A DNA stretch of 21,400 nucleotides from a virus: positions 1 to 21,400 of IMG/VR virus record IMGVR_UViG_3300025759_000841; one strand, written 5' to 3'. The position numbers and the translations under genes are program-made. Below are positions 2,905 to 19,612 of the stretch, one piece after another; position 1 is the first letter of the stretch, and every line of letters starts with the position of its first letter. The notes under the pieces were generated by a model. The model had not been told where the DNA came from, searched no databases, and was given only the letters and a program-made list of their open reading frames with translations.

Positions 2905-3933
2905 TCAAGCCGCTAAATCGTCGTATGTATTAGATGTAGAAGGCGCATTCTCCGCGTAAGTATTAGACGTTGAAGGCGTTAAATCGTTATACACTGTACC
3001 TCCAGGAACTATCTCTGAATACGTATTAGATGTAGAAGGTACACTTTCCGCGTAAGTATTAGACGTTGAAGGCGTTAAATCGTTGTACACTGTGCCTCCC
3101 AGAACTATCTCCGAATACGTATTAGATGCAGAAGGTACACTTTCTGCGTAAGTATTAGACGTTGAAGGGTTCAAATTGCTATACACGGTGCCTCCTGGAA
3201 CTATCTCCGAATACGTATTAGATGTAGACGGACTAATACCGTTATACACATTTCCGGGAGCAGGAGCAATATTACCCCAAACAATGGCTTTTCCTGCCTG
3301 ACCTGTAGCAGAAACACCGCCTACAGTGGCACTCGCGCCAGATGTAACAGTTACCGCGCCAACCTGACCTGTAGCCGCTGATCCTGAAACAATTACACTA
3401 TTATCAGCCGATACAACAACACTGCCAACCTGACCTGTAGCGGCGATACCCGTGACTGTAGTATTGCTGTTACCAGATGTAGTAACTATTCCAACTGCAC
3501 CAGTAGCAGATACACCTGTAATATTTACAGAAACACCTGTACCTTCTGATACAGTTACCGATCCAACTTGACCTGTAGCGGCAACTCCACTAACTGTGAC
3601 ACTATTGCTTATCGCGACAGTAACACTGCCAACCTGACCTGTAGCGGCAACCCCCGTAACTGTTACATTACTATCCGCAGTAGTAGTAACACTGCCAACC
3701 TGACCTGTTCCCGCGACACCTGTGACGGTTACATTATTATCAGCAGTGATAGTAACACTGCCAACCTGACCTGTAGCGGCAATACCTGTGACGGTTACAT
3801 TATTATCCGCAGTAACAGTGACACTACCGACTTGACCAGTAGCGGCAATACCTGTTATAACGACAGATGCACTAGGTGATTGAGTTAGTTTAGCGGCTAA
3901 AGAAGCAGAGGCTAGAGGTATAAAACCTAACAT
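2905..3933 (-). CDS. Fibre-like protein made of two different tandem repeat families
   Basis: The 342-residue product starts after a good ribosome binding site (GGAGGATAA-ATG). A hydrophobic N-terminus 'MLGFIPLASASLAAKL' looks like a signal or virion-anchoring segment. Residues 24-221 are nine repeats of mostly 22 residues with consensus VTVTGVAATGQVGSVTVTAD; the fifth copy has 24. Residues 235-342 form a second array of 32-residue units built from 'PSTSNTY(A/S)E' and 'VPGGTVYNDLT' pieces. There is no Cys and few charged residues. Alternating V-T-V segments suggest short beta strands, so a beta-solenoid or fibrous shaft is plausible but not shown. The position between a tail-assembly-chaperone-like gene and a tail fibre supports a tail or fibre role. 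I do not recognise a named family beyond similar 'ATGxVGSVTV' repeats recalled from marine phages. Confidence 0.85.
   Translation of the reverse strand: MLGFIPLASASLAAKLTQSPSASVVITGIAATGQVGSVTVTADNNVTVTGIAATGQVGSVTITADNNVTVTGVAGTGQVGSVTTTADSNVTVTGVAATGQVGSVTVAISNSVTVSGVAATGQVGSVTVSEGTGVSVNITGVSATGAVGIVTTSGNSNTTVTGIAATGQVGSVVVSADNSVIVSGSAATGQVGAVTVTSGASATVGGVSATGQAGKAIVWGNIAPAPGNVYNGISPSTSNTYSEIVPGGTVYSNLNPSTSNTYAESVPSASNTYSEIVLGGTVYNDLTPSTSNTYAESVPSTSNTYSEIVPGGTVYNDLTPSTSNTYAENAPSTSNTYDDLAA
2908..3231 (-). repeat. Tandem 96-bp coding repeats
   Basis: A second in-frame array lies in the C-terminal third of the same protein. Equivalent points at about 2974, 3070 and 3166 are exactly 96 bases apart. 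Each unit encodes 32 residues with two 'PS(T/A)SNTY' pieces and one 'GGTVY' piece. The units are very similar, so the array probably expanded recently. Confidence 0.88.
3271..3864 (-). repeat. Nine tandem 66-bp coding repeats
   Basis: In-frame repeats encode residues 24-221 of the 342-residue fibre-like protein. The best conserved core encodes ATGQVGSVTV, and most units are 66 bases long (one is 72). Copies nearest the N-terminus are most alike; the later ones have drifted. Confidence 0.9.
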
Positions 3934-7985: not shown

Positions 7986-8324
7986 TTATCTTCCTTTTCG
8001 ACGCATAGGTCTTGAACGAGCTTTGAGTTTTTGGGTCATTCCACCCAACCCTTTTTTGAGAGCCCCGCCAACCTTTGGTCTTGAACGAGCTTTGAGTTTT
8101 CCGGTCATTCCACCCAACCCTTTTTTGAGAGCCCCGCCAACCATTTTACCAACATTAGCTGATTTTAAGTTTTTCCCCAGAGCACTGCCAAAACCTCTTC
8201 CTGTTTGCATGGGCTTTTTCTTTGAACCTGCTACGCGACCTCTAAGAATCGTGTTTGTAGCGGTTCCAGTTTTCTTTTTCATAGCCGCGCCACCTTTAGC
8301 GTAGCCTTTTTTACCTTTCATCAT
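7986..8324 (-). CDS. Small Lys/Arg/Gly-rich basic protein with an internal duplication
   Basis: I place the start at the ATG at 8324 rather than at an ATG 60 bases upstream, because AGGAG lies six bases before it and the longer form would overlap the 228-residue gene deeply. The 112-residue product is strongly basic, with many Lys, Arg and Gly and almost no acidic residues ('GKKGYAKGGAAMKKKTG' at the start, 'RPMRRKGR' at the end). Two 23-residue units, 'VGGALKKGLGGMT(G/Q)KLKA' plus RSRP, stand in tandem near the C-terminus. No fold is evident. The charge suggests nucleic-acid contact or binding to the capsid interior; that is inference only. Confidence 0.75.
   Translation of the reverse strand: MMKGKKGYAKGGAAMKKKTGTATNTILRGRVAGSKKKPMQTGRGFGSALGKNLKSANVGKMVGGALKKGLGGMTGKLKARSRPKVGGALKKGLGGMTQKLKARSRPMRRKGR
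8008..8142 (-). repeat. 69-bp tandem duplication inside the basic protein gene
   Basis: Copies 8008-8073 and 8077-8142 are offset by 69 bases and differ at only two positions (TG versus CC near 8031 and 8100). The period is a multiple of three, so the frame is kept. Confidence 0.93.
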
Positions 8325-8997
8325 CGCTATCTCCTGCATAAAGGTTATTAAATGTAACAGAGGGATCCATATAACTTTCATCATTTTCCGCGCTATGCGT
8401 CCACTGACTCGGTTTAAAATCTGGTGCTCCAGATCCTGTTTCCCAAAGTGCAGGGGAAGTAGCTCTTACCCTGTTATTCGGCAACGCGACAATATTACCT
8501 GTCCATTTACCGGCATTTGTAAGTTCTATAACATGACTCTGCTTATGTTGTGCAGGATCATCAGCTATATCTGTTTCAGTATAGTCTACGGTAAACATAT
8601 ATCTACCTGTATAAAACTCACCATCTATTTTACAAAGCCATGGGCTTGAACTTACTCTATCAAGTTTTACGACAGAATGATAGTGAGAACTACAATCCCA
8701 AGGTTGTGCATGGTGTGTAACCATACGCTCAGGCCATTCTTCCAAAGGTGTGTCTGCTACTAACGCAGTAATAGGTAATCTTGCCCACATAGCCCCACCA
8801 TGCACATTTTCAGTATCTTCAATATCAGATTCACAACCTGTAAAGACTACTTGAAAACTCAAACAACGGTCAGGAACTGTATTGACAGCAATAGCCATGG
8901 CGTGAATAAACTCACCGTGATACTGCTCATGATTATGTGTGAATTCTTTCCGCACCCAACATTTAAAGTGCGGGATATTACTTATAAGATAACTCAT
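8311..8997 (-). CDS. Conserved marine-phage protein of unknown function
   Basis: The 228-residue product starts at an ATGA junction with the upstream basic-protein gene. It opens 'SYLISNIPHFKCWVRKEFTH' and contains 'HGEFIHAMAIAVNTVPDRCL', 'FQVVFTGCESD', 'GGAMWARLPITALVAD', and a later region rich in Trp and His ('HHAQPWDCSSHYHSV', 'GRYMFTVDYTETD'). The C-terminus is acidic ('AGDSDDER'). I recall homologues in cyanophage and uncultured marine phage genomes, always near the structural genes, without a known function. Several conserved His, Cys and Trp residues make it look like a folded globular protein rather than a fibre. A minor virion protein or maturation factor is possible. No catalytic signature can be named. 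Confidence 0.82.
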   Translation of the reverse strand: MSYLISNIPHFKCWVRKEFTHNHEQYHGEFIHAMAIAVNTVPDRCLSFQVVFTGCESDIEDTENVHGGAMWARLPITALVADTPLEEWPERMVTHHAQPWDCSSHYHSVVKLDRVSSSPWLCKIDGEFYTGRYMFTVDYTETDIADDPAQHKQSHVIELTNAGKWTGNIVALPNNRVRATSPALWETGSGAPDFKPSQWTHSAENDESYMDPSVTFNNLYAGDSDDER

Positions 8998-14582: not shown

Positions 14583-15008
14583 TTATGTGTGCAGAATATC
14601 TTCTGGGTTGTTAATAGTAGCCAATATTTCATCATCGTTTAGTAGTCTAACTTCGCCACCATCAATTTTAAAACGGCTACCCGCATATCGGCCAAAAATG
14701 ACCCAATCACCTTCCTTGCACCACGCACCAGTTTCCCCAAACTTTTGAGGATCTTTGTACGCTAACGGTCCAACTTTCATCACATAGCCACATACGGTAG
14801 CTAGTGCTTCACGCTCAACTGCTTGATCTGGAAGATAAACACCGCCTTCAGTTTTCTTTTTACCCTTAAAAGGTAAAATCAAAATACGCCAACCTGTTGG
14901 CTGTGGCATTTTTTCTATTGCGGGGGTGTCTTTAGTCTTTTCGGCTTCTTGTTTTTTAACTTCTTGCGCTTTTGCGAGGTATTCGGGTACATATAGTGTT
15001 TTACTCAT
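14583..15008 (-). CDS. GroES-like co-chaperonin (Cpn10)
   Basis: The 141-residue protein matches the Cpn10 family from about residue 37. It has 'PTGWRILILPF', a mobile loop with 'KKKTEGGVYLPDQAVEREAL' (the GGVYLP tripeptide region corresponds to the GGIVL of GroES that contacts GroEL), 'GYVMKVGP', then 'CKEGDWVIFGRYAGSRFKID' and the closing 'LLNDDEILATI'. It is longer than bacterial GroES (about 97) because of an N-terminal extension of about 36 residues, a longer central loop and a short C-terminal tail. It presumably pairs with the host GroEL to fold the capsid protein encoded nearby. The start overlaps the coiled-coil gene by eight bases. Confidence 0.92.
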   Translation of the reverse strand: MSKTLYVPEYLAKAQEVKKQEAEKTKDTPAIEKMPQPTGWRILILPFKGKKKTEGGVYLPDQAVEREALATVCGYVMKVGPLAYKDPQKFGETGAWCKEGDWVIFGRYAGSRFKIDGGEVRLLNDDEILATINNPEDILHT

Positions 15009-15192
15009 GTTCTACCTTTTTTAGCAGGGCATAAAGCTCCTGTTCTATGGTTGCAAGTTCTTCGCGGCGAGCACGAAGCACCTTGAATGCAGAAAAATCT
15101 TCTATCGCGCCTTCAATAATCTGGCTTTCAATTAGATGTTTCCGTTCATTGATTATATTACGGAGTTTTTCGTGAATGTAAAGGTCTGACAT
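15001..15192 (-). CDS. Small coiled-coil protein
   Basis: A 63-residue, entirely helical product ('YIHEKLRNIINERKHLIESQ', then 'IIEGAIEDFSAFKVLRARRE', 'LATIEQELYALLKKVEHE'). The heptad-like spacing of hydrophobic residues suggests a helical hairpin or dimer. Similar small proteins ('...I.ER...L...L..G...DY.EY..LRG...gL..ai.ei..LL') occur, from memory, beside portal and chaperone genes in marine and other phages. It lies between the holin and GroES genes. Function unknown. Confidence 0.8.
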   Translation of the reverse strand: MSDLYIHEKLRNIINERKHLIESQIIEGAIEDFSAFKVLRARREELATIEQELYALLKKVEHE

Positions 15193-15193
15193 C

Positions 15194-15589
15194 TTATTTT
15201 GTCACTTTTTTCACTTTTTCAAAGGTGCGAAGACCACCAAGACCCAGCATACCCATCAAAACAGTCATAAGCGAACTCATATCAAACTCCGGTAAAGCTG
15301 GTATTTCTACACCAGCCCATGATACACCAAACAAAATCAACGGATTTAACACAAAATGGTAGGCTAACGCGATACCGCAAGTCCAACCAATGAAAGGACG
15401 CCACCCCGCCACAAACAAACTGCGGTGCTGTGCTTCCATTTTATTGACTTCAACCTGTGCCATTGCCGCTTCATGGGCGGCTTTTTCTGCCATAGTCGCA
15501 ATTTCATGCGCCATAGCGTTTTTGGCATCTTTGTCTTCAATAAATTTATCCAGTATACCTGTAACTGGACCGATTAGTGCTTGTAACAT
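15194..15589 (-). CDS. Holin, GTA three-TM type
   Basis: The 131-residue protein opens with 'MLQALIGPVTGILDKFIEDK', has an amphipathic Ala-rich segment ('EIATMAEKAAHEAAMAQVEV'), then 'RSLFVAGWRPFIGWTCGIAL' followed by a hydrophobic stretch to about residue 90, and a final hydrophobic segment near 105-120 ('SLMTVLMGMLGLGGLRTFEK'). The 'S(I/L)FVAGWRPFIGW' motif and the terminal 'LxGMLGLGGLRTxEK' are the marks of the holin family first described for release of gene transfer agents in alphaproteobacteria. It should form inner-membrane lesions at lysis. Its position inside the head gene block is unusual. Confidence 0.88.
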   Translation of the reverse strand: MLQALIGPVTGILDKFIEDKDAKNAMAHEIATMAEKAAHEAAMAQVEVNKMEAQHRSLFVAGWRPFIGWTCGIALAYHFVLNPLILFGVSWAGVEIPALPEFDMSSLMTVLMGMLGLGGLRTFEKVKKVTK

Positions 15590-15601: not shown

Positions 15602-15817
15602 TCAATACACTTCCACTTTGTCACTGTCTATTCTTACTGGTTTGCAATATGCGGTAGCCCTATGCTCTGCGGGAACGCCACTAATACTTCCATAATTGCC
15701 GTATCTTTTTACTACCCTAGCCGCAAAGTAATTACAGTCATCAATAGACCGAAAATACATATCTTGGCTCTGCACCTTTCCACCTAATAACACAACCAGT
15801 AAAAACGCATGGATCAT
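15602..15817 (-). CDS. Small exported protein with two Cys
   Basis: A 71-residue product with a short signal-peptide-like start (residues 1-17, 'MIHAFLLVVLLGGKVQS'), and a mature part with C28 and C58 that could form one disulfide in the periplasm ('SIDDCNYFAARVV', 'ATAYCKPV'). The gene overlaps the two-TM protein gene by ATGA and precedes the holin gene. A spanin-like or other envelope role is suggested by context. The signal peptide lacks a clear lipobox (no Cys at the cleavage zone), so an outer-membrane lipoprotein spanin is not supported. Confidence 0.78.
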   Translation of the reverse strand: MIHAFLLVVLLGGKVQSQDMYFRSIDDCNYFAARVVKRYGNYGSISGVPAEHRATAYCKPVRIDSDKVEVY

Positions 15818-16053
15818 TTTTTATCAACAGATTTGACCTCTACTGATTTATGCTCATGACCCATCCATATGCCAAAAACGCCAGTCATAACGCCCATGAC
15901 AACAGAAACAAAAGCAGATTGAGGAGCTGAAGGATCTTCTAATGCCATAAACCATTCAGCGCAACGCCATGACATCGCTGTGCTAACTAACATCATAAAC
16001 CTAGGAAGTATTTTCCATCTAAGAAAAATATCCACAGATTTAGCACTTATCAT
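15814..16053 (-). CDS. Two-TM membrane protein, holin-like
   Basis: The 79-residue product has two predicted membrane segments, about residues 17-40 ('LPRFMMLVSTAMSWRCAEWF') and 47-65 ('SAFVSVVMGVMTGVFGIWMG'), with a short acidic loop between them ('ALEDPSAPQ') and a charged C-terminal tail. It begins directly after the stop of the Met-rich gene (TAA then ATG). Its size and topology agree with a holin or a holin partner of the three-TM protein two genes on. From memory, similar 'MsW(R)C.eWFm...P...Qa.fvs.vmg..tG.f..Wm' proteins occur in marine phages. Confidence 0.8.
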   Translation of the reverse strand: MISAKSVDIFLRWKILPRFMMLVSTAMSWRCAEWFMALEDPSAPQSAFVSVVMGVMTGVFGIWMGHEHKSVEVKSVDKK

Positions 16054-16653
16054 TTAGGCAAAGCCTCTCATCATACCAGCTAGGCCGCCAATCCCGCCTG
16101 TAGGCATTGGTCGCATTGGGGGTCGCATTCCACCGTACATTGCGTCTGTAGGTCTAGGTGGAGTTGGGCGCATTCCACCACCAAACATCATAGGAGGCAT
16201 TGGTCGCATTGGGGGTCGCATCCCACCACCAAACATCGGAGGCATTGGTCGCATCCCACCACCAAACATCGGAGCTTGCATTCCACCACCAAACATTGGT
16301 CTAAATGGGAACGGGCGCATTCCACCACCAAACATTGGAGGCATTGGTCGCATCGGAGCTTGCACTCCCATGCCAGTGCCGCCACCACCAAAAAGCATCG
16401 ACAATGGCTGACCACCAAAACCACCTATACCAGCCGATATTGGAAGAGGAGCGGGGTCTACCTGAGGAGATGGAACAGAGTTATCAGGGTACATTGGCCG
16501 AGGGGTTGGGCGTGTAGCTCCATACATTGAATCTGCAGGTGCGGGAGGTTGTGGCATCGCATTATTAGTTCTTATAGGCATAGGAGCTGGTGCCATCCCA
16601 TAAGAGTTATTCATGTAACTAGGGGCTTGCATTCCACCATACATCATAGCCAT
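16054..16653 (-). CDS. Met/Gly/Pro low-complexity protein
   Basis: The product has 199 residues, of which about 34 are Met and most of the rest Gly, Pro and Ala. It has no Lys, Glu, Cys, His or Trp; Arg is the basic residue. The C-terminal 110 residues are tandem copies of variants of 'PMFGGGMRPMPP'. The N-terminal part contains 'GMAPAPMPIRTNNAMPQPPA'. It starts at a TAATG overlap with the Lys-rich gene, so expression is coupled. The sequence must be intrinsically disordered. From memory, Met- and Gly-rich ORFs of this kind do occur next to portal genes in uncultured marine phages, but no function is known. An internal virion or ejection component, or an assembly factor, is conceivable. Confidence 0.8.
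   Translation of the reverse strand: MAMMYGGMQAPSYMNNSYGMAPAPMPIRTNNAMPQPPAPADSMYGATRPTPRPMYPDNSVPSPQVDPAPLPISAGIGGFGGQPLSMLFGGGGTGMGVQAPMRPMPPMFGGGMRPFPFRPMFGGGMQAPMFGGGMRPMPPMFGGGMRPPMRPMPPMMFGGGMRPTPPRPTDAMYGGMRPPMRPMPTGGIGGLAGMMRGFA
16076..16393 (-). repeat. Degenerate tandem repeats encoding MFGGGMRPMPP
   Basis: Minus-strand coding repeats, seen on the plus strand as CCACCACCAAACAT blocks (for example near 16170-16190, 16223-16237, 16256-16270, 16284-16298 and 16321-16335) with intervening GGAGGCATTGGTCGCAT. The spacing is irregular (about 30-55 bases), so the array is degenerate. Confidence 0.8.
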
Positions 16654-16961
16654 TAGAATACCCCTTTGAAAGAAGTTCCGCGGATAGCCGCACCACCGCC
16701 ACGCGATACCTTGTTCGAACTACCGCGATTACTGGTGGCTACATCTAATGCTTTTACTTCACCACCATCTTTCATTTTTACGCCACGGCCTTTTTTAGCT
16801 TCACCACCTTTTGCGGCTTTCATCCGCTTTGATGTTGGCTTTTTATCATTAGAACTCATTTGGAAAATTTCAGCTTCAAGCTCGATGACTTTATCATCAT
16901 CTTGGTTTTCTTTTGCTTCATCCAAAAGCTCTTGTAGCTGTTTTAATCTTTCATCATCCAT
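16653..16961 (-). CDS. Small Lys-rich protein of unknown function
   Basis: The 102-residue product has an acidic helical N-terminus (residues 1-35, 'MDDERLKQLQELLDEAKENQ'), a basic middle ('KKPTSKRMKAAKGGEAKKGR'), and a Gly/Ser/Arg-rich C-terminus ('SRGGGAAIRGTSFKGVF'). The ATG stands two bases after the TAG of the 31-residue gene. 'AxxGGExKKGRGVKMKxGGEVK' and the 'RGGGAAIRGTxFxGVF' ending recur, from memory, in small proteins downstream of portal genes in marine phages. An adhesive or portal-proximal virion role is possible. I recognise no domain. Confidence 0.8.
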   Translation of the reverse strand: MDDERLKQLQELLDEAKENQDDDKVIELEAEIFQMSSNDKKPTSKRMKAAKGGEAKKGRGVKMKDGGEVKALDVATSNRGSSNKVSRGGGAAIRGTSFKGVF

Positions 16962-16963
16962 AA

Positions 16964-17059
16964 CTAGCCTAACCTCTCATTCATAATATCTGATAAGATA
17001 TTTTCAGTTACCTTAGCATAAGGGTATTCATTTGAAAATAGATCTGTTGGATTAGCCAT
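16964..17059 (-). CDS. 31-residue ORF coupled to the portal gene
   Basis: A short ORF begins at the ATG that overlaps the portal stop (TAATG) with GAGGTGG just upstream, and ends two bases before the Lys-rich gene. The product begins 'MANPTDLFSNEYPYAKVTEN' and ends 'ILSDIMNERLG'. It has a normal amino-acid mix and fills what would otherwise be a 97-base gap in a region where genes are packed end to end, which supports translation. Function unknown. Confidence 0.65.
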   Translation of the reverse strand: MANPTDLFSNEYPYAKVTENILSDIMNERLG

Positions 17060-19485
17060 TATCCACCTCGATTCATTGTTCTCGCCATGGCAATCTGAGC
17101 TCTCATTTCAGCAATATCTTCAGCACTGTCGATACGCTCCCTAGCTACAGCGGTTTGCTCCATAGCCCGTCTAGTATCTAGCTCTAACCTCTGCTGATCG
17201 TTTTGGGCTTCTTGCATCATTTGTTGCTGTCTTATCTGCAACTCTTGTGCTTTTAAGTCAACCAATGGGTCACTGTCTTGACCAGCAAACAGCTGAGCTT
17301 CTTGTTGCACATACTGAGTCATCAATTGTGCCTGTATTTGTGATACCATAGCATCCATTTGTGGATTTGGTTGAGGCGGCTGTTGCTGTTGCTGTTGCAT
17401 CTGCTGTTGCATTTCAGGCGGCATCTGCTGTTGTGCTAATGCCTGTGCTTTAAGGTTGATATGTTGCAAAATATGGTTTTGCATAACCGAAATAAGCGCA
17501 GGATTTAACTGAACAATTTTGCTAGACATATACGCTAGATGCGTTTGAATATGTGCATCATGGTCTTGCTCAGGGAAAGCCTGAAGTTGCATTTGACCAG
17601 TAAGCGCACCTTGCGCCATAGAGTTTTCTGTTACAGCATCCATAGGTGCTGGCTCAGATGGTGGCGGTAGTATTTGTTCAATATTATCTACGCCCAACGC
17701 CGCATACATTCTACGGAAGGCTTCGTAAATATTGTGCATATCAGGGTTAGCTTGGGCTAATTGCAACTGCTCTTGTGCCAAACTTACACGCTGAGACATA
17801 CTGAAAATGTTGGGATTAGCGACAGGTACAATATCTATACGCCCATCAAAATCCTGTTGCTTCATACCCTGTACTGCACCTTGTACAAAGTACGGATAAT
17901 CATCTTGTTGCTCGGCAATAATTTCTGCCATGAGCTTAAATTCAATCCGCATAGAATTATACAAGCGTTTATGCACCGCCGACATAATTCGGCTACCGCG
18001 CTCCATAAGGGCTACTGTTGTTCCTACAGGCATTTCAGTATTTTGGATATTACCTGTGCCAATATCTGTAGTACCTACAAATTTTTGTGCGGCTTCTACA
18101 ACAAAAGCTAGGAGTTGGAACAGAGTCGCGCTCGGCTCTTTGTAGGGCAAGGGTAAAAGGGAGCGGCTGAGCTCCGTTCCAACAACATCGACATCACGCC
18201 ATTCTCCTGGCTGTAAAGGCTCGTCATCATCGCGGATACGCAACCCTCTAGCCTTAAATCCGGCTGGCATATTAGCCAATGTACCCGCATCTACTAACTG
18301 TCTTAGGTTAGCTGTGGCTGTGCGGGACAAATTACCTAATAAATGAATTAAGCCATTGCCGTAAAAACCCAATCCAGGAGTAAACACATAGTGAACAAAA
18401 AACTGTTTCTTGCGTTTTAGCGGGTCATCTTCTTTATAATTTCGGTAAATAGACAAAACTTCGCCTGAATCGGCAGATACCGTTACTATATAGGGTAATT
18501 TTATACCTGTGCTTTCGTTTTCTTCATCTGTATCCGGAAAATCTTCCAAATCTAGATAACAATGGCACTCGTACAGTACAATTTCGTCAGATGACCCTGT
18601 TTTTTCCAAACCAGATAATGATTCTTTAGTTTCATCAAGCTCACTATACTCATCATCGCTACCTTCTATTTCAACATCTTTGTAAAACCCGCTAACTTGC
18701 AGTTTACGGAGATCATTTGGTAGCATTTTTACGATATGTGTGACTCTTTCTACAGAGGCTAGATCTGTAGCATTGTATGGAACTAATAAATCCTCGGCTT
18801 GCACAAATTTGCTGACCTGCCGCCCTACTTGTGGGTCTAAATACACCTTTTTAAAGGCACTACCGCATAGCCCGAGGTAGTAAAGCATTTGGTCAAACTC
18901 AGAATCGTACTCTTCCATTACATGAATTATCTGGTAATTCATGAAATCTTTAACACGTTCCGCTTGTTTTTCTATTTCGGGGTTAGTATCACCCAAGATC
19001 TGCGTACGAACTGGTCCTCCAGGAGGCAAAAGCTCCTTATACGCTTGGCTTTGGAACTGGCTTACTGCTTCATTCAGCATGGGGTGAATTACACCCGTAG
19101 CACCAGCAAAAGGTTGAGTACGGTTTTCGTATTTTACCCCTAAAAGCTCTAACCCCTTTACATAGGCATTCATCCATTCCTTGCGTGAAGACTTATCATC
19201 CTCCACTTTTTCAAGGATCATACTGGAAATGCCAGCTAACTCATCATCATTTACATACTCTGCAAGGTTGCTAAAAAACCCTGCCTCACTCAAATCTTTC
19301 TTTTCATCTTCTGGGTCAGCAAATTCTACCGAACCATCCTCCATTTTCAAAACTTCTAAACCCTCTGTAGTCAATTCAGGGGCTTCTTGCGGTATTTCTA
19401 TATCCAATGGGTCTTCAGGCAACGTCTGCCCGACCAATGTAAACTCACGTTCAATGCTGTTGTATGGGTTCGGTTCTCTAGCCAC
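17059..19485 (-). CDS. Portal protein
   Basis: I place the start at the GTG at 19485, preceded by AAGGAGG with a five-base spacer; an ATG 21 bases upstream lacks such a site and would lie inside the ribosome binding region. The product is then 808 residues, opening 'VAREPNPYNSIEREFTLVGQ'. It forms the dodecameric DNA channel at the capsid vertex. Segments such as 'WMNAYVKGLELLGVKYENRT' and 'PFAGATGVIHPMLNEAVSQF' followed by 'QSQAYKELLPPGGPVRTQIL', then 'GLGFYGNGLIHLLGNLSRTA' and 'PVGTTVALMERGSRIMSAVH' are characteristic of large portals of the P22-related and marine podovirus type. The C-terminus is very rich in Gln and Met and ends with a helical, coiled-coil-like barrel tail. P22 portal is 725 residues. 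Confidence 0.92.
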   Translation of the reverse strand: MAREPNPYNSIEREFTLVGQTLPEDPLDIEIPQEAPELTTEGLEVLKMEDGSVEFADPEDEKKDLSEAGFFSNLAEYVNDDELAGISSMILEKVEDDKSSRKEWMNAYVKGLELLGVKYENRTQPFAGATGVIHPMLNEAVSQFQSQAYKELLPPGGPVRTQILGDTNPEIEKQAERVKDFMNYQIIHVMEEYDSEFDQMLYYLGLCGSAFKKVYLDPQVGRQVSKFVQAEDLLVPYNATDLASVERVTHIVKMLPNDLRKLQVSGFYKDVEIEGSDDEYSELDETKESLSGLEKTGSSDEIVLYECHCYLDLEDFPDTDEENESTGIKLPYIVTVSADSGEVLSIYRNYKEDDPLKRKKQFFVHYVFTPGLGFYGNGLIHLLGNLSRTATANLRQLVDAGTLANMPAGFKARGLRIRDDDEPLQPGEWRDVDVVGTELSRSLLPLPYKEPSATLFQLLAFVVEAAQKFVGTTDIGTGNIQNTEMPVGTTVALMERGSRIMSAVHKRLYNSMRIEFKLMAEIIAEQQDDYPYFVQGAVQGMKQQDFDGRIDIVPVANPNIFSMSQRVSLAQEQLQLAQANPDMHNIYEAFRRMYAALGVDNIEQILPPPSEPAPMDAVTENSMAQGALTGQMQLQAFPEQDHDAHIQTHLAYMSSKIVQLNPALISVMQNHILQHINLKAQALAQQQMPPEMQQQMQQQQQQPPQPNPQMDAMVSQIQAQLMTQYVQQEAQLFAGQDSDPLVDLKAQELQIRQQQMMQEAQNDQQRLELDTRRAMEQTAVARERIDSAEDIAEMRAQIAMARTMNRGG

Positions 19486-19612
19486 GCTTACCTCCTTGAA
19501 TAACACGAAGAACAGGCCGTGGACGGAGAGCCTGTTCAGCTTGCTCCATCAAGCGTTTGAGGTACTCGAATTTAGCCGTAATAGTTTGCAACTCTTGGGG
19601 GTCCCTCAACAT
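19478..19612 (-). CDS. Nested 44-residue ORF between terminase and portal
   Basis: Starting at the ATG at 19612, an ORF overlaps the last 41 bases of the terminase in another frame and the first 8 bases of the portal. The product reads 'MLRDPQELQTITAKFEYLKR' then 'LMEQAEQALRPRPVLRVIQG' and GKRG. The helical first half and the 'RPRPVLRVIQGGKRG' ending look like real protein; 'VIQGG' endings recur in small alphaproteobacterial and phage proteins, from memory. Its Gln-Gly-Gly-Lys codons carry the portal's Shine-Dalgarno sequence. AGAGG stands about 12 bases upstream, a weak site. Function unknown; a small terminase-like role is not supported. Confidence 0.55.
   Translation of the reverse strand: MLRDPQELQTITAKFEYLKRLMEQAEQALRPRPVLRVIQGGKRG
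19486..19496 (-). promoter_or_regulatory. Ribosome binding site deciding the portal GTG start
   Basis: On the minus strand AAGGAGG is followed by five bases (TAAGC) and then GTG at 19485. It is the best ribosome binding site in the neighbourhood and lies inside the 3' end of the nested ORF. Confidence 0.85.

Follow-up and report, generated by a model that had tools for sequence, protein, structure and literature searches.

The minus-strand reading frame MGP, lying in the 21,400-nt stretch of viral DNA analysed here (the window), is probably a genuine gene, as judged from its layout and repeats, and it is an optional member of a variable cassette of small late genes, outside the conserved head set. 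Its product is predicted to be intrinsically disordered. The role tentatively preferred, at somewhat less than even confidence, is that of an accessory late-operon protein, a disordered multivalent polymer that would bind late virion-assembly partners, structural proteins or nucleic acid.

Composition, repeats and selection

The frame runs from 16653 to 16054, with an ATG start, a TAA stop and 199 aa, at the position given by an earlier reading of this DNA (the original prediction). Its main features are as follows.

16054..16653, minus strand: MGP, 199-aa Met/Gly/Pro/Arg protein, accessory late gene (from ORF, composition, repeat divergence and AlphaFold2)
16354..16653, minus strand: MGP residues 1-100, Pro/Ala/Met-rich, non-repeat, net charge 0
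16102..16353, minus strand: MGP residues 101-184, the degenerate MFGGGMRPMPP repeats, in which nearly all of the net positive charge resides
16661..16667, minus strand: AAAGGGG, Shine-Dalgarno-like by sequence, 7 nt ahead of the MGP start

The protein comprises 42 Pro, 38 Gly, 34 Met, 15 Ala, 14 Arg and 10 Phe, Met making up 17% (1 in 5.9, close to the one in six first noticed), and Lys, Glu, Cys, His and Trp are indeed missing, with zero of each counted. These five amino acids constitute 13.4% of the residues in the remaining window proteins, giving a nominal probability of 4e-13 of meeting none in 199 residues. Among 2765 distinct plus-strand ORFs of at least 70 aa from 308 loci, MGP ranks first in its Met+Gly+Pro fraction (0.57; next 0.43, mean 0.15, sd 0.05). 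Its charged residues are 14 Arg and 4 Asp, Arg being the sole basic residue, and this Arg-only polycation character had been overlooked originally. The charge is unevenly placed, residues 1-100 being neutral overall and the whole of the +10 falling within residues 101-199. The degenerate repeats previously assigned to the C-terminal half were found at residues ~101-184, and Tandem Repeats Finder independently reported a 33-nt unit at 16214-16354. In a survey of prokaryotic and phage low-complexity regions, hydrophobic residues, aromatic residues and Arg are heavily under-represented (PMC6821194), and against this background such a strong enrichment of Met, Phe and Arg is unusual. Tandem repeats are also present elsewhere in the window (2927-3228, 3563-3855 and 8008-8142, with units of 96, 66 and 69 nt), two arrays in a 342-aa gene at 2905-3933 and one in a basic 132-aa gene at 7986-8384.

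Regarding the layout, the MGP start sits inside the stop of the upstream gene p102 (TAATG overlap) and its TAA stop directly abuts the ATG of the downstream gene TM79. This bears out the translational coupling that had been proposed, with the adjoining p102 and TM79 as partners. The region shows no excess of promoter-like sites over shuffles, giving no indication of a separate MGP promoter, and Gly and Thr codon choice in MGP is close to that of the remaining window genes.

Self-comparison of the MGP nucleotides, assuming no frame, gave 18 pairs of similar segments, every offset being a multiple of 3. The mismatches fall at 13 of 131 third codon positions versus 3 of 271 first and second positions (nominal Fisher p 6e-5, from few repeat copies and non-independent segment pairs). 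A protein-guided comparison of the repeats gave 26 third-position differences versus 1 elsewhere, the choice of pairs itself favouring synonymous change. Within MGP, contig L003 differs from the window once, and silently (codon 103, CCA to CCC). Taken together, the third-position mismatches and the silent change suggest that the repeat protein was kept while its DNA drifted, and the repeats seem to be under protein-level selection.

Predicted disorder and compositional look-alikes

AlphaFold2 gave a model of MGP with mean pLDDT 55, pTM 0.13, no secondary structure and no helix, from a single-sequence run of the kind that often yields poor models even of folded proteins. The most hydrophobic 19-mer has a Kyte-Doolittle mean of 1.02, with no transmembrane helix, and the protein falls on the ordered/collapsed side of the Uversky plot, making a sticky, compact yet unfolded chain plausible. 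MGP is thus predicted to be intrinsically disordered, as first proposed, a sticky collapsed coil being as likely as an open chain. The statement that it has no ordinary hydrophobic core agrees with the AlphaFold2 model, although the Uversky plot places the chain on the collapsed side. The suggestion of a membrane-active protein received no positive support, in view of the low maximal hydropathy, and MGP may still bind membranes in a non-helical manner. The composition is consistent with a sticky polymer or one that undergoes phase separation.

Several known protein types were considered and rejected. MGP has no Cys and hence no lipobox, and no strongly hydrophobic segment, which speaks against an Rz1-type Pro-rich spanin lipoprotein, and the hydropathy and helix-free model speak against a holin or other membrane protein. 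Its repeat is MFGGGMRPMPP and not the G-X-Y of collagen-like phage proteins, and RGG-box nucleic-acid binding is disfavoured by zero RGG, Arg occurring mostly as MRP.

Searches with MGP gave no match in Pfam, PHROGs, PDB sequences or NCBIfam and nothing convincing by tblastn of phage records (one stretch with E=3), and 84,980 prokaryote genomes yielded no relative that could be confirmed. Its compositional look-alikes likewise matched no PHROGs family. The protein itself is limited to the window and two IMG/VR contigs 99.8-99.9% identical to it. Likewise, a DNA pattern scan of IMG/VR for MFGGGM.P recovered the repeat array only in two near-identical contigs, the other 35 stretches belonging mostly to proteins unrelated to MGP, in many cases an ATPase with MFGGGMLPGS, together with three small proteins of the Met/Gly/Lys type. 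Small Met/Gly/Lys repeat proteins of marine phages were located in IMG/VR contigs compared with the window (L-numbers throughout).

L281 4529-4687: small Met/Gly/Lys repeat protein
L289 3533-3718: the same type
L300 4541-4705: the same type
L318 4216-4410: the same type
L321 4135-4431: the same type
L329 43-348: the same type

They resemble MGP in their 17-24% Met, their GG[MV] or M[FY]GGGM motifs and their basic character, but they are Lys- and not Arg-based, have mostly hardly any Pro, are 52-101 aa long and lie at other genome positions. Example sequences are KKMMRGGVAKKMMRGGMAKKK and MMYGGGMTPRKPMMYGGMAKKKK.

Closer look-alikes by position, between portal and holin/GroES and with few Lys and Glu, were seen in other marine phages: Gly/Gln/Met-rich proteins of L214, L216 and L217 (175-180 aa), placed between an EF-hand/TM-type gene and the holin; proteins of L200 and L201 (150 aa), Pro-rich, then Gly/Phe/Tyr-rich; and gp77 of roseophage CRP-902 (102 aa), compositionally MGP-like and directly past the portal. 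Look-alikes share with MGP a Pro-rich first half and a Gly/Met/Phe/Tyr-rich second half, whereas they differ in a lower Met content (3-9%), in a lower net charge and, for L200, L201 and L214, in a short predicted coiled coil. Alignments of MGP with the cassette proteins of L214, L216, L200 and L201 reach z 3-4.7 over shuffles; that with L214 (z 4.5) is colinear over DPxPLPxS..GGFGG, against a background of 1424 ORFs in which six non-self ORFs score as high or higher and the sd of z is 2.0. In BLASTP against the look-alikes one pair reached E 0.007, spanning 23 aa. Because of the background scores and a profile-comparison (hhalign) probability of 6%, homology with the L214 protein is not claimed, and the likeness to this group is taken as compositional and positional. 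Met/Gly/Pro-rich, Lys/Glu-poor ORFs are present in 13 of 95 portal-GroES cassettes, an enrichment that is not significant (13/363 versus 1/97 ORFs, p 0.32). The search for similar ORFs at this position, as originally recommended, returned a few distant marine phages but no significant enrichment.

A variable cassette between portal and GroES

On the minus strand the gene order is TerL, portal, p102, MGP, TM79, s71, holin, p63, GroES, scaffold-position gene, p156, p205 and MCP, where the scaffold label rests on position and the MCP label on position, a weak NCBIfam match and the annotation of relatives. Every neighbour of MGP belongs to the head, packaging or lysis genes and shares its strand.

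17059..19506, minus strand: portal protein, PHROG 1216, left border of the variable cassette
16653..16961, minus strand: p102, 102 aa, acidic N-terminal half and C-terminal tail SRGGGAAIRGTSFKGVF, overlapping the MGP start (TAATG)
15814..16053, minus strand: TM79, 79 aa, hydrophobic with predicted membrane segments, PHROG 10198, beginning directly past the MGP stop
15602..15817, minus strand: s71, small, with a signal-peptide-like start (by eye) and two Cys, overlapping TM79 by 4 nt
15194..15589, minus strand: holin, Pfam GTA_holin_3TM (E 8.7e-21), PHROG 3427
15001..15192, minus strand: p63, small conserved gene ahead of GroES
14583..15008, minus strand: phage GroES co-chaperonin (Cpn10), conserved right border of the cassette

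MGP had been placed right after the portal, but p102 (16653-16961) intervenes. Of the holin-like genes described just downstream, the membrane-type TM79 does adjoin MGP, but the recognisable holin is three genes away. The interval from portal to GroES holds none to eleven small genes in cultured relatives: none in Alcaligenes phage vB_Af_QDWS535, one in Planktothrix phage Pag-Yong1, three each in DSL-LC04 and Caulobacter phage RW, four in HTVC023P and eleven in HTVC027P. This range marks it as a cassette of variable content, made up of lysis genes together with genes for small proteins.

Six relatives with a closely similar, not strictly identical, gene order (L004, L005, L006, L007, L087 and L088) have no MGP. 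In L004, L005, L087 and L088, which are 96-97% identical to the window in the holin and 88-90% in GroES, p102 and the start of TM79 share 4 nt, no gene lying between them; in L006 and L007 the gene that p102 overlaps is another small one, with a hydrophobic segment and an EF-hand-like motif. MGP was gained in the window lineage or lost in the relatives at a clean cistron boundary. Given these absences, MGP is not a conserved head protein of the phage group, and a core head role is unsupported. According to the original prediction, absence of the ORF from close relatives would mark it as dispensable or spurious; MGP is dispensable on this count, but the third-position divergence of its repeats speaks against a spurious frame.

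The cassette shows further signs of variation. A Gly-rich gene of 223-233 aa, absent from the window, lies between portal and p102 in L004 (3322-3993), L005 (3617-4309) and L088 (1450-2151), forming a second optional slot, and these three contigs have further small cassette genes that the window lacks. In many relatives, the slot directly past p102, taken here by TM79 or MGP, holds a small protein in which hydrophobic segments come after an EF-hand-like DxDxDGxxxxxE loop (L006 5343-5681, L214 1257-1577, L201 3626-3979). TM79 resembles copies in other marine phages (up to 91% identity over its core, in L233) more than those of the nearest portal relatives (62-65%), a sequence pattern read as a sign of exchange within the cassette. 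In addition, many small cassette proteins close with the C-terminal tail [IV]SRGGGAAxRGxxFxGVx, including p102 (16653-16961), L147 861-1121 and L161 1343-1606, as do two consecutive genes in each of L220 (2007-2258 and the next gene) and L221. A regular-expression survey gave 55 distinct ORFs with this tail, none bearing it internally, whose N-terminal parts form three BLAST groups, and the tail could be a portable tag for targeting or virion incorporation.

Possible roles of MGP

In the preferred reading, MGP would be an intrinsically disordered, multivalent chain, probably rich in polyproline II, where Met, Phe and Arg would act as weakly binding stickers and Gly and Pro as flexible spacers, the repeat half being a polycation. 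Its gene position implies expression alongside the head and lysis genes, so that it would presumably act late in infection, through weak and redundant binding to partners in virion assembly, to structural proteins fresh from synthesis or to nucleic acid that is packaged. It would thus be comparable to the Gly/Met/Phe-rich low-complexity tails of chaperones and not to a folded structural part. Among prokaryotic low-complexity regions, G/M/F-rich ones are enriched in chaperones and K/R-rich ones in DNA/RNA binders (PMC6821194), and as MGP joins G/M/F with Arg, it may bind structural proteins, nucleic acid or both. In GroEL tails, Gly/Met segments form polyproline-II helices (PMC12571646). The C-terminal GGM tails of GroEL and the G/M/F-rich chaperone regions share with MGP a Gly/Met(/Phe)-rich low complexity prone to polyproline II by composition, but they are short extensions of a folded chaperone, whereas MGP is free-standing, Pro- and Arg-rich and without a predicted fold. 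The Met-rich domain of yeast Pbp1, which undergoes redox-regulated condensation/phase separation (PMC8394241), has Met-rich low complexity in common with MGP, but Pbp1 is a large eukaryotic RNA-binding protein with demonstrated condensation, while the likeness of MGP is one of sequence. A more specific version, in which MGP is a free-standing polymer serving as a chaperone-like or condensate-forming assembly helper alongside the phage GroES of the same operon, is quite improbable. Against the preferred reading as a whole, GroES borders the cassette in nearly all relatives, with or without MGP, and for this reason gives no co-occurrence signal, and close relatives manage without MGP.

The rival readings rank in the order minor virion protein, nearly neutral ORFan, lysis helper and host-directed effector. 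It is unlikely, although this heads the rivals, that MGP is a minor virion component, either an internal protein, disordered and cationic, that is packaged along with the DNA, or an accessory protein of the head that leaves it at infection by loss or ejection. Already put forward in the original prediction, this agrees with the Arg-only polycation of the repeat half, the enrichment of K/R-rich low-complexity regions in DNA/RNA binders (PMC6821194) and the place of MGP as second gene past the portal, but the closest relatives lack it and +10 in 199 aa is a modest charge density for a DNA condenser. Virion proteomics of relatives was not found in the literature consulted, PMC10149686 containing no mass spectrometry, and a phmmer search of the PDB for a solved virion structure of a relative gave no match for portal or MCP. 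A similarly low probability is given to MGP being an accessory ORFan that is nearly neutral: a repeat gene of recent growth, translated through its operon position with little or no benefit. Its confinement to near-identical contigs, an array made by local duplication and the average of 17 +/- 9 unique genes per HTVC023P-type phage (PMC9599517) would all fit, but the third-position bias among repeat copies and the silent L003 difference point to selection on the protein.

Improbable, too, is a lysis helper acting with TM79, s71 and the holin, for example by membrane binding or by tuning lysis time: MGP adjoins TM79 and is coupled to it, the holin lies no more than three genes away, and a protein of similar composition directly precedes the holin in L214, L216 and L217, but MGP has neither a transmembrane helix nor the Cys of a spanin lipobox, and TM79 and the holin work without it in relatives. 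Least probable, and very unlikely, is a host-directed disordered effector whose Pro/Met motifs bind a host protein such as the chaperonin GroEL, since a late-operon position suits host take-over poorly, in spite of the compositional resemblance of the Gly/Met repeats to the GroEL tail (PMC12571646, PMC6821194) and the accessory presence of MGP.

A 199-aa protein predicted to be unfolded, with repeats apparently held at the protein level, implies selection for a physical property and not for a structure. Should MGP condense or bind partners in assembly, it would offer a small and experimentally tractable case of a disordered assembly helper from a phage; should it be neutral, it would illustrate the extent to which the composition of accessory phage genes can drift.
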